From Bacteroidota bacterium (lineage in GTDB: Bacteria; Bacteroidota; Bacteroidia; AKYH767-A; 2013-40CM-41-45), in contig SHNE01000033.1 of assembly GCA_004295015.1 (NCBI GenBank), positions 1 to 64,000 of the forward strand: a stretch of DNA of 64,000 bases. Reading direction: 5' to 3'. Numbering within the stretch: the stretch's first letter is position 1; the number at the start of each line of letters is the position of its first letter. The notes beneath the pieces were generated by a model, which worked only from the letters and a program-made list of their open reading frames with translations, was not told where the DNA came from and made no database searches. Both the position numbers and the translations under genes were made by a program. This document shows positions 50,873 through 53,949 of this stretch, one piece after another.

Positions 50873-50945
50873 GATTCCGTAGCTCAGTTGGTAGAGCAAT
50901 ACACTTTTAATGTATGGGCCCTGGGTTCGAGTCCCAGCGGGATCA
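50873..50945 (+). tRNA. tRNA-Lys (TTT anticodon)
   Basis: The full cloverleaf is present: acceptor stem GATTCCG with CGGGATC (one G-T pair), D arm GCTC...GAGC, anticodon arm ATACA-CTTTTAA-TGTAT with anticodon TTT, and T arm CTGGG-TTCGAGT-CCCAG. Length is 73 nt without an encoded CCA. The 3' half is repeated 325 bp downstream. Confidence 0.96.
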
Positions 50946-50978
50946 CAAAAACCGGTTTTACCGGTTTTTTTTATGATG
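50916..50978 (+). repeat. Direct repeat copy 1: tRNA 3' half, terminator and nuclease start
   Basis: Positions 50916-50978 are repeated at 51241-51302 with a single T missing. The repeat includes the variable loop, T arm and acceptor 3' strand of tRNA-Lys, the terminator, and the first two codons (ATGATG) of the GIY-YIG gene. Weaker similarity continues into the nuclease coding region. Confidence 0.93.
50948..50972 (+). terminator. tRNA terminator
   Basis: AAAACCGG (50948-50955) pairs with CCGGTTTT (50961-50968) with a 5-nt loop and further T. It ends the tRNA transcript directly before the GIY-YIG ATG, and is repeated at 51272-51296. Confidence 0.85.
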
Positions 50979-51221
50979 GCCTTTGTTTATATATTATTCT
51001 CTAAGAAGTTGAACAAGCACTATATAGGCGCTTGTAAAGATATTGATCGGAGAATATATGAACATAATATTGGCCATTCAAAGTTTACCAAAACAGGTCT
51101 ACCTTGGGAATTAATGTATGTTGAAGAATATGAAGATTTGGCGAAAGCTAAAAAAAGAGAATTAGAGATAAAGAAAAAAAAGTCAAGAAAGTTCATTGAA
51201 GAGTTGATTGCGAAGGGTTGA
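50973..51221 (+). CDS. GIY-YIG nuclease-domain protein
   Basis: An 82-residue single-domain GIY-YIG endonuclease (FVYILFSKKLNKHYIGACKD with the Tyr and Gly signature, a basic arm RRIYEHN, then the catalytic Glu region LPWELMYVEEYEDL). The ATG at 50973 is chosen because the open frame from 50910 lies inside the tRNA and would not be translated. It lies directly behind the tRNA terminator and is flanked by copies of the tRNA 3' half, as expected of a homing-type element that targets a tRNA gene. The substrate site is unknown; such small nucleases occur often in Bacteroidota. Confidence 0.88.
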   Translation: MMAFVYILFSKKLNKHYIGACKDIDRRIYEHNIGHSKFTKTGLPWELMYVEEYEDLAKAKKRELEIKKKKSRKFIEELIAKG

Positions 51222-51222
51222 G

Positions 51223-51240
51223 CATCCCGCCTTAGCGGGA
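51223..51240 (+). terminator. Hairpin after the GIY-YIG gene
   Basis: TCCCGC (51225-51230) pairs with GCGGGA (51235-51240) around a CTTA loop, directly after the stop codon and before the second tRNA fragment. It has no T tract of its own. Confidence 0.5.
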
Positions 51241-51302
51241 GGGCCCTGGGTTCGAGTCCCAGCGGGATCACAAAAACCGGTTTTACCGGTTTTTTTATGA
51301 TG
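51241..51302 (+). repeat. Direct repeat copy 2: displaced tRNA-Lys 3' half and terminator
   Basis: Repeats 50916-50978 almost exactly: variable loop, complete T arm, acceptor 3' strand, terminator and ATGATG. It is not a functional tRNA, since it has no 5' half. It looks like the original 3' end displaced by an insertion that restored the tRNA with its own copy. Confidence 0.92.
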
Positions 51303-51345
51303 CTAATCGTTTTGAAAATATTCTCTAAGAAGTTGAGTATACACT
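51297..51345 (+). pseudogene. Decayed GIY-YIG nuclease start
   Basis: Beyond the repeat, the sequence still resembles the start of the GIY-YIG gene (TATTCTCTAAGAAGTTGA is shared, then a degraded match), reading IFSKKLSIH and then a stop where the intact gene has HYIGA. It is the remnant of a second, older copy of the nuclease. Nothing else is supported between it and 51580. Confidence 0.7.
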
Positions 51346-51580
51346 AAATAGGTGACTCCGGAACATGCTGGAAGAAGGAATAATAATCCTTGTAATTAAT
51401 TTTGGCTAAGGTCTTTTGGATTTTTGGTGGATACCTTCGACATTCTGATGCATTTAATTGGAAATAGCTGCTAAATGCTACCAGGACACAAAATTCAAAA
51501 TTGTGAAATCGATATATTACAGCTACTTTTCAAAAATTTTCAATTGATAGGGAAATACTCTTCTCCTTGAATGAATTAAT

Positions 51581-53137
51581 ATGGTTGAAATTGATATGAT
51601 TGAAATAGGTGCAAAGGATCTGAGCCTGGAGGATATGTATTTGCTTTTGTTTAAGGAGCAGCATATTAGCCTGTCAGATAAAGCTTTAGCTAAAGCAGAA
51701 GCGAATTATACTTTCTTACGGGAATTTTCCAGCGGTAAACTGATCTACGGAATTAATACAGGATTCGGTCCGATGGCTCAATATAAAATTGCCGATAAGG
51801 ACTTGAGACAATTGCAGTTCAACCTGATCAGAAGTCATTGCTCAGGTTCAGGAAATCTTTTGTCAGAAACTGATATTAAAGCCCTGATGATAGCTCGTTT
51901 GAGTTCTCTGATGAAAGGCTATTCGGGTGTGAGTCAGGGACTATTGACTACACTTCGGGAATTGATTAATCGAAATATTAATCCATGTATTTACGAACAT
52001 GGTGGAGTAGGCGCCAGTGGCGATCTTGTTCAGTTGGCTCACCTTGCCTTGGCACTAATTGGAGAAGGTGAAGTAGTTTATGATGGAAAGGTTCAGGATT
52101 CTTCGGCTGTATTCAAGAAAGAAAATATTGAGCCCGTTGAAATTCACCAACGCGAAGGTATCGCTTTGTTGAATGGAACTTCTGCTATGACAGGTATTGG
52201 CGTTGTGAATCTGATTTATGCAAAGAAGTTAATCAACTGGTCTGTTCTCATTTCTACATGTATCAATGAGCTGGTGGAAGCTTTTGATGATCACTTTTCC
52301 CTCGAACTGAACTCTGTAAAATTGCATCATGGACAATTAGAGGTTGCAAAGGCAATGGGTGCAATTGTTAAAGACAGCAAACTGATTCGCAAACGTACGG
52401 ATCATTTATACCAGGGCGCGAAAATCGAAGTCGATATCGTTGAAGAAAAAGTGCAGGAATACTACTCACTTCGTTGTGTGCCTCAAATCCTTGGTCCGAT
52501 TTACGATACCATTAAGAGTGCCGAGAAAGTTGTGATGCATGAAGTGAATTCTGTAAATGATAACCCTGTTATCGATTCAGAAAATAAAAATATTTACCAT
52601 GGTGGTAATTTTCATGGCGATTATGTTGCCCTTGAAATGGATAAACTAAAAATTTCCATCACCAAACTTGCTATGCTCGCAGAACGTCAGCTAAACTTTT
52701 TGTTGAATGATAAACTCAACCAGAAATTGCCTCCATTCGTAAACCTTGGCAAACTGGGTTTGAATTATGGTTCACAGGGCATGCAGTTCACGGCCACTTC
52801 CACAGTTGCAGAATGTCAGACGCTTTCAATGCCAACATACATTCATAGCATACCTAACAACAATGATAATCAAGACATCGTAAGTATGGGCGCAAATGCT
52901 GCTCTCATCACACGGAAAGTAATTTCAAATTCATTTGAGGTGCTTGCTATACAAGTCATCGCCTTGATTCAGGCTATTGATTATACGAATTGTGCGGATA
53001 AACTCTCCGGTCCCGCACGAAAAATGTATACTGAGTTAAGAAAAATTTGTCCGAAATTCGTGGAGGACAGACCTCTTTTTAAAGATATCAGACTTGTTAC
53101 GGCATATCTGAAGGAAAAAGAAATCGAACTCTTATAA
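51581..53137 (+). CDS. Aromatic amino acid ammonia-lyase (probable tyrosine or histidine lyase type)
   Basis: A 518-residue MIO-dependent lyase that removes ammonia from an aromatic amino acid to give the corresponding cinnamate-type acid. The self-forming MIO triad Ala-Ser-Gly is at residues 145-147 (GGVGASGDLVQLAHLAL), the catalytic Tyr56 in YGINTGFGPMA, and the selectivity pair Ser85-His86 in LIRSHCSGSGN. In flexirubin clusters this enzyme makes the coumarate starter from tyrosine, which the gene neighbourhood supports; by sequence alone histidine ammonia-lyase cannot be excluded. First gene of the pigment operon; the start is ATG at 51581 or 51596. Confidence 0.88.
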   Translation: MVEIDMIEIGAKDLSLEDMYLLLFKEQHISLSDKALAKAEANYTFLREFSSGKLIYGINTGFGPMAQYKIADKDLRQLQFNLIRSHCSGSGNLLSETDIKALMIARLSSLMKGYSGVSQGLLTTLRELINRNINPCIYEHGGVGASGDLVQLAHLALALIGEGEVVYDGKVQDSSAVFKKENIEPVEIHQREGIALLNGTSAMTGIGVVNLIYAKKLINWSVLISTCINELVEAFDDHFSLELNSVKLHHGQLEVAKAMGAIVKDSKLIRKRTDHLYQGAKIEVDIVEEKVQEYYSLRCVPQILGPIYDTIKSAEKVVMHEVNSVNDNPVIDSENKNIYHGGNFHGDYVALEMDKLKISITKLAMLAERQLNFLLNDKLNQKLPPFVNLGKLGLNYGSQGMQFTATSTVAECQTLSMPTYIHSIPNNNDNQDIVSMGANAALITRKVISNSFEVLAIQVIALIQAIDYTNCADKLSGPARKMYTELRKICPKFVEDRPLFKDIRLVTAYLKEKEIELL

Positions 53138-53220
53138 ATTATTTGATAAAGTCATTTATGCCTTTGATGAGGTTATTGACTGTTTCAAACTAGTTAAGTT
53201 CTAACAATAAAATTAGAATT

Positions 53221-53949
53221 ATGAATTTTGCTTTCATAACAGGGGGGTCAAGGGGTATAGGACGTGCAGTCTGTATACAATTAGCTCGCATGAATTATAA
53301 CATCTTATTAAATTACAAGAGTAATGATGAAGAGGCTAACAAAACCAAAGCTCTTATTGAAGAATTGGGGCTGACTTGTGAATTGTTAAAGTTTGATGTG
53401 TCTGATAAAGATCAAATCAAACAAGTACTCGGCGATTGGATTGAAAATAATAAAGAGAAAAACATTGAAGTTCTAGTAAACAACGCCGGTATTCGTCAGG
53501 ATAACCTGCTTATGTGGATGAGCGACGAACAATGGGAAACCGTGCTTAACACCAGTTTAAATGCCTTCTTTTATGTCACCAGACTCGTACTTAACGGTAT
53601 GCTTGTTAAGAAATATGGAAGGATTGTAAATATCGTTTCCCTCTCAGGACTGAAAGGTTTACCGGGTCAAACGAATTATTCTGCAGCTAAGGCCGGGATG
53701 ATAGGGGCAACCAAAGCTCTTGCACAAGAAGTAGCCAGAAGAGGAGTTACAGTGAATGCAGTTGCACCCGGATTCATTAAAACAGACATGACCGGTGATC
53801 TTGACGAGAAGCAACTTTCCACGCTGATTCCCATGAAACGCTTTGGAACAGCGGAAGAAGTGGCTGAAGTTGTTGGTTTCCTTTCTTCTAAAGGGGCTTC
53901 TTATGTGAATGCAGAAGTGATATCCGTCAATGGAGGACTCTATTCGTAG
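53221..53949 (+). CDS. fabG: 3-oxoacyl-ACP reductase (FabG-like)
   Basis: A 242-residue short-chain dehydrogenase with NADP motif FITGGSRGIGRAVCIQL, the NNAGI segment, the catalytic Ser-Tyr-Lys (SLSGLKG, then NYSAAKAG) and VNAVAPGFIKTDMT. It reduces the beta-keto group on ACP after each chain extension in the pigment polyene assembly. It follows the lyase by 83 bp and precedes the ketosynthase. Confidence 0.93.
   Translation: MNFAFITGGSRGIGRAVCIQLARMNYNILLNYKSNDEEANKTKALIEELGLTCELLKFDVSDKDQIKQVLGDWIENNKEKNIEVLVNNAGIRQDNLLMWMSDEQWETVLNTSLNAFFYVTRLVLNGMLVKKYGRIVNIVSLSGLKGLPGQTNYSAAKAGMIGATKALAQEVARRGVTVNAVAPGFIKTDMTGDLDEKQLSTLIPMKRFGTAEEVAEVVGFLSSKGASYVNAEVISVNGGLYS

Follow-up and report, generated by a model that had tools for sequence, protein, structure and literature searches.

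A palindrome-marked GIY-YIG nuclease unit at a bacterial tRNA-Lys gene and its relation to a candidate family of homing-like elements in tRNA genes

The closest known system to the units described in this study is SegB of T-even phages, a free-standing GIY-YIG homing endonuclease that adjoins tRNA genes of many isotypes, as its relatives do, and that drives the tandem amplification of a tRNA segment in phage T6 (PMC13096335). Both the position of a GIY-YIG gene beside tRNA genes of many isotypes and the repeated tRNA segments are shared with our units. However, SegB is described in phages whereas the present units reside in bacteria, and the passages on SegB that were consulted mention neither palindrome-split tRNA genes nor displaced halves or lineages tied to particular isotypes (PMC13096335). 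The nuclease encoded in the window (the entire stretch of 64,000 nucleotides of the Bacteroidota contig SHNE01000033.1 analysed here) has no match in a tblastn search of 50,697 phage records at an E-value of 1e-5, and thus neither shows the homology expected of a SegB orthologue nor supports a phage origin, which was rejected on these grounds.

Partial likeness is also found in three other systems. Group I intron and intein endonucleases of the I-TevI type likewise have a GIY-YIG catalytic domain and are located within an essential gene or next to it. The function of this gene is kept after insertion, which in the present case would not involve splicing but instead a replacement gene part that is carried along. 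Integrative elements and satellites targeting tRNA genes similarly insert at the tRNA, restore its 3' end and leave a displaced 3' copy. In contrast, our unit measures only about 0.3 kb, the break is located inside the anticodon, D or T arm, the junction carries a palindrome, and the integrase gene expected for a tRNA element of the tyrosine-recombinase kind is absent between the repeats of the window. REP/REPIN-RAYT systems finally resemble the units in the pairing of palindromes with a small dedicated nuclease gene. There, the palindromes are dispersed in the genome and the nuclease is of the HUH (Y1) type, whereas here it is a GIY-YIG protein and those palindromes whose exact sequence was checked occur exclusively within tRNA-derived repeats located at tRNA loci, so that a reading as REP-like dispersed repeats was dismissed.

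The locus in the window is centred on an intact tRNA-Lys(ttt) gene (anticodon UUU; 50873–50946, forward strand, assigned by ARAGORN), which is the only Lys tRNA in the list of tRNA genes found in this genome and whose anticodon arm occupies 50899–50915. On the same strand, it is followed by a terminator-like inverted repeat with a T-run (50947–50972), unlike the terminator at an empty site of the same genus, and by a gene coding for a GIY-YIG nuclease of 82 amino acids (50973–51221), the sole gene between the repeats. The initial annotation had described a recurrence of the 3' half of tRNA-Lys and its terminator 325 bp downstream with one base missing, an intact nuclease between the copies and the decayed start of a second nuclease behind them, all of which we recovered. 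Positions 50916–50971, covering tRNA nucleotides 44–74 and the terminator, are identical to 51241–51296 in 56 of 56 nucleotides at a spacing of 325. The second copy consists of the displaced 3' part of the tRNA (51241–51271, forward strand), which is identical to the intact gene, and a terminator (51272–51296, forward strand) whose T-run upon sequence comparison is shorter by one base. Behind it, the start of a second and different nuclease allele (51297–51353, forward strand) agrees with the first in 42 of 57 nucleotides (74%) and then decays. Missed in the earlier description was a perfect palindrome, TCCCGCCTTAGCGGGA, at 51225–51240, which in the displaced copy substitutes exactly for the anticodon arm (tRNA nucleotides 27–43) and thus defines a junction 26|44. 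The sequence and junction position of the preceding GGTTGAGCA (51216–51224, forward strand), which overlaps with the stop codon of the nuclease, identify it as the approximate counterpart of the D-arm end, reading GGTAGAGCA in the intact gene. In a search with a tRNA covariance model, the region 51206–51270 still scores as a weak yet full-length tRNA (23.5 bits). The unit thus combines, in about 0.3 kb, a GIY-YIG gene with a palindrome-marked spare half of tRNA-Lys; when its surroundings were searched, neither a 5' piece nor a further (third) 3' copy could be convincingly identified, and no palindrome-marked 5' piece is found upstream of the intact gene. The longest open reading frame of the region (50910–51221, 103 amino acids) starts within the tRNA and is a spurious extension, whose false N-terminus MYGPWVRVPAGSQKP... 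runs through tRNA and terminator, and annotated relatives are likely to contain start errors of the same kind. Further downstream (51581–53949), an aromatic amino acid lyase-like gene is followed by a reductase-like gene, both of which, judged from their sequence, are possibly part of a pigment cluster.

The nuclease consists of a bare catalytic domain, as reflected in its match to PF01541 above the Pfam cut-off (55.5 bits), its conserved residues and an AlphaFold model with a pLDDT of 92.9. Tyr6, Tyr17, Arg27, His31 and Glu63, which in the context of a GIY-YIG fold place the protein into this superfamily, show little or no variation among 30 sequences, and an added DNA-binding domain is absent. 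Its nearest solved relatives are the UPF0213 proteins 1zg2 and 1ywl, which are closest in both sequence and fold and equally contain only the GIY-YIG domain, followed by SLX1, with I-TevI ranking behind. SLX1 is a structure-specific nuclease that works with SLX4 and it is larger than the protein described here. By analogy, a cleavage of branched DNA as in SLX1 would fit the sites encountered in this study, whose nature as stem-loops and palindromes is consistent with a structure-seeking enzyme. Between genomes, dN/dS values where dS is measurable are mostly in the range of 0.07–0.35 and the coding sequences thus indicate that the nuclease is under purifying selection.

The same layout, which had equally escaped the initial annotation, is found at other tRNA genes. 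Three of the six GIY-YIG matches in the source genome are small separate genes and all three are located just downstream of a tRNA on the same strand (122 bp from tRNA-Met, 27 bp from tRNA-Lys and 320 bp from tRNA-Ser), with the layout being repeated at tRNA-Met and, without a visible displaced piece, at tRNA-Ser. It is present in most of the 40 relatives examined, at tRNAs for Val, Ala, His, Leu, Arg, Asp, Asn, Pro, Met and Ser. Among the 95 nuclease copies obtained from these genomes, some of which are fragments, 55 have an intact tRNA nearby on the same strand, 54 a displaced tRNA piece and 70 either one or both, and in no case where both are readable do the isotypes disagree; the proportion expected by chance, based on 37 tRNA genes in 3.86 Mb and a neighbourhood of about 1 kb, is about 0.5%. 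From a phylum-wide sample of 247 genomes, 29 loci were fetched (two of which overlap), and 27 of these have a tRNA within about 350 bp, adding Gly to the isotypes. In relatives and sample combined, small GIY-YIG genes adjoin tRNA genes of 12 isotypes. The association extends to loci from Ignavibacteria and Chlorobiota (L012, L013). Many of the GIY-YIG genes that are not attached to a tRNA form one separate clade, which probably constitutes another GIY-YIG family and whose small members were found at L040, L043, L045, L094, L104, L106, L107 and L116.

With A denoting the 5' part of a tRNA and B its 3' part, P the palindrome and a' and b' short pieces of the same tRNA, the loci follow the order (A-P-b'-short spacer)n - intact tRNA - terminator - nuclease - a'-P-B, with further nuclease-a'-P-B units following at some of them. 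A mirror form, where the nuclease is placed between A-P and the intact tRNA, is found at L012, L018, L021, L078 and L198. The palindrome either replaces or enters a stem-loop, which is the anticodon arm in tRNAs for Val, Ala, His and Lys, the D-loop in Leu and some Met tRNAs and the T-arm in some tRNAs for Asp, Val, Asn and Leu. In other Asp and Met elements, it is located in the stretch from the anticodon loop to the variable loop, and in a lineage at tRNA-Arg at nucleotides 26|27. When inspecting 276 GC-rich palindromes around the nuclease-associated tRNAs, 105 were found to be flanked by the tRNA's own sequence, compared to 5 in a control with the reversed tRNA. At 17 loci P is present on both sides of the tRNA, in 9 of them at the same tRNA position and with the same stem; at the other 8 the positions disagree, possibly as a consequence of several layers of insertion. 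Stems are kept within a lineage while loops vary, as in TCTCGTCA-nnnn-TGACGAGA at tRNA-Asp of several genomes. Within the source genome, the Lys palindrome TCCCGCCTTAGCGGGA occurs once and the Met palindrome TCCGCCAGCTGGCGGA four times, all within the tRNA-Met array, and a loose palindrome motif is found 15 times in 3.9 Mb. The view of displaced 3' halves was correct for the window locus but incomplete for the family, since 5' pieces are displaced as well and since the palindrome is typical of displaced pieces. On the minus strand near the tRNA-Leu of L077, further palindromes interrupt existing ones close to the middle (TCCCGATAGC-TCCCGACACTTCGGGA-...), as though the centre of P were itself a favoured site of insertion.

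Genes orthologous to the tRNA-Lys of the window by their neighbours are found in a genome of the same genus (G001) and in two of the same family (G006 and G009), with neither a nuclease nor a repeat behind them, and a unit directly behind tRNA-Lys is found in 0 of the 29 relatives compared. In this comparison, synteny was anchored on upstream genes; the downstream lyase gene was dropped as an anchor because relatives carrying it have no tRNA at this position. The initial annotation had proposed that its interpretation should be abandoned if empty sites were missing in close relatives, and their existence establishes the variable occupancy expected of a homing element, although between species and not strains. 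G001 itself carries traces at tRNA-Val, -Asp, -Cys and -Met, the palindrome at the latter being a different one located in the D-loop, which points to a turnover of elements within the genus. At locus L007 of a Chitinophagaceae MAG, a nuclease with 64% identity to that of the window is found in the same arrangement at tRNA-Lys, with the intact gene located at the contig end in opposite orientation.

The target is also reflected in the phylogeny of the protein. On a tree of 94 nucleases, which is based on a short alignment and leaves many forks open, the target isotype requires 28 changes compared to at least 45 in shuffled assignments (mean 51.7, 0 of 500 as low), whereas the host family requires 35 changes compared to a shuffled mean of 41. 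Nuclease lineages are thus strongly tied to their target, as expected for homing elements, and weakly to their host, and nucleases of one isotype cluster across families and even phyla. The assignment of tRNA-Lys as target therefore holds for the window but not for the family, whose lineages differ in the isotype they use.

Collectively, the anatomy of the loci, their isotype-specific lineages, the presence and absence at orthologous sites, the mosaic of two alleles in the window and the selection on the nuclease are observed directly in the sequences, and we consider it likely that the units belong to a family of minimal homing-like elements living in tRNA genes. Such an element would consist of a GIY-YIG nuclease of about 80 amino acids, a tRNA piece that restores the gene and a palindrome flanked by about 7–25 nucleotides of the same tRNA, which as a hairpin or a dyad site may form the end of the element. 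A stem-loop of the tRNA gene would be broken by the nuclease at its dyad, with lineages differing in the arm concerned (D, anticodon or T), and the break would be repaired from a copy of the element, presumably acquired by transfer between cells, via the short tRNA-derived arms beside P. In this process, the inserted DNA would complete the tRNA gene anew and so preserve the function of a single-copy essential gene, while the old part, marked by P, would be displaced to the far side, a 3' part downstream and a 5' part upstream. If the restored gene were entered again, P-marked pieces would accumulate in arrays together with older nucleases undergoing decay. Break and repair of this kind would account for displaced pieces of both types, for nested arrays, for empty sites and for the common position that P occupies on either side. 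The proposal of a lone nuclease that without an integrase resides at a tRNA, restores its 3' end and leaves displaced halves has thus gained support, except that the break would be located in a stem-loop and not at the 3' end as for integrases. The intact tRNA-Lys of the window is identical to its counterpart at the empty site of the same genus and P interrupts the target in displaced copies. The restored gene is therefore not protected by recoding and, in contrast to classical homing alleles, could be exposed to renewed cleavage, which led us to reject a drive with recoded rescue; on the basis of these sequences, a simple self-immune drive is not supported. At tRNA-Met, the terminator following the intact gene resembles that of a nuclease-free relative, and the extent of the inserted part at this locus is for that reason not clear-cut.

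The main rival explanation assumes a local amplification driven by the nuclease, where in a SegB-like manner tRNA and nuclease are duplicated in tandem, spare tRNAs decay, palindromes originate from repair and the arrangement is inherited vertically without being mobile. Such amplification of a tRNA segment is known for SegB (PMC13096335), and it would account for the nearly identical nucleases within L199 and the arrays of identical units in L081 (four of 85 bp) and L022 (three of 73 bp), which look like tandem duplications. It does not conform with the clustering of single-isotype nucleases across families and phyla, the empty orthologous sites in the same genus or the replacement of a precise part of the tRNA by P at the same site in different genomes. 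It is also at odds with different nuclease alleles inside one locus, as observed in the window and at the tRNA-Leu of L077, whose two nucleases are 64% identical. We thus regard amplification without transfer as unlikely, though it is the strongest of the alternatives. A distinctly less probable scenario concerns a domesticated host system, in which the nuclease and P-marked pseudo-tRNAs would serve the host, for instance by acting in tRNA processing or regulation, or by diverting as decoys those nucleases or integrases that target tRNAs. The long-term selection on the nuclease and the tRNA-like folding that some displaced pieces keep in part would be in line with such a role, which is in turn contradicted by the patchy presence at any given tRNA, the many decayed copies, the occurrence of 5' or 3' pieces alone and the different tRNAs occupied in two congeneric species. 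That the tRNA 3' end was simply duplicated in tandem, with a functionless nuclease as passenger, might be suggested by the exact 56-nucleotide repeat of the window, but such a reading is hardly credible in view of the recurrence at 12 isotypes with junction palindromes, the purifying selection and the invariant catalytic residues. It is already contradicted in the window itself, where nuclease copies differing by 26% follow identical copies of the 3' part and terminator, since plain duplication and decay would have led to equal wear. As read from these two alleles, and in line with the repeated insertion proposed in the initial annotation, a new element appears to have entered a tRNA that already carried one.

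In the open-access literature, we found no description of tRNA-splitting, palindrome-marked GIY-YIG units in bacteria, and the family of homing-like elements that we favour is thus apparently undescribed. Its members are related in kind to tRNA-associated homing-type GIY-YIG nucleases, and there is a fair chance that they form a class of their own. A wider proposal, to which we give slightly less than even odds, would define a new class of mobile elements by a structure-seeking GIY-YIG nuclease with lineages specialised on particular tRNA stem-loops, by palindromic ends and by a carried tRNA part that serves as repair. Such elements would be widespread among Bacteroidota, with further members in Ignavibacteria and Chlorobiota, and would represent nature's equivalent of 'cut and rescue' gene drives. 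A very common and overlooked element would in that case colonise essential, often single-copy tRNA genes by mending its own damage, requiring only about 0.3 kb and neither integrase, transposase nor splicing. This would open to direct testing by which means a nuclease of 80 amino acids, lacking an added DNA-binding domain, selects a single tRNA isotype, and whether it is by their structure that palindromes and tRNA stem-loops are recognised. The same elements would account for predicted proteins that start with translated tRNA sequence and for displaced tRNA pieces that are easily mistaken for remnants of attachment sites.

Three further sites of the source genome contain tRNA-derived pieces. 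On contig C27 (L183, 1224–1500), four tandem units of about 69 bp, which correspond to the first 28 nucleotides of tRNA-Gly(gcc), are located upstream of the intact gene, with no nuclease seen nearby on a contig that ends soon after. On contig C19 (L189, about 900–1400), a piece resembling the 5' part of tRNA-Ala with the palindrome CTGATCCGAAAAGATCAG is located in the interval from tRNA-Ile to tRNA-Ala, probably the spacer of an rRNA operon, and a weak pseudo-tRNA (27.9 bits) follows the tRNA-Ala. Finally, the assembly breaks inside a pseudo-tRNA-Met array at the end of L117 and the start of L118 (contigs C44 and C3), and such arrays seem to often coincide with contig ends in relatives as well.
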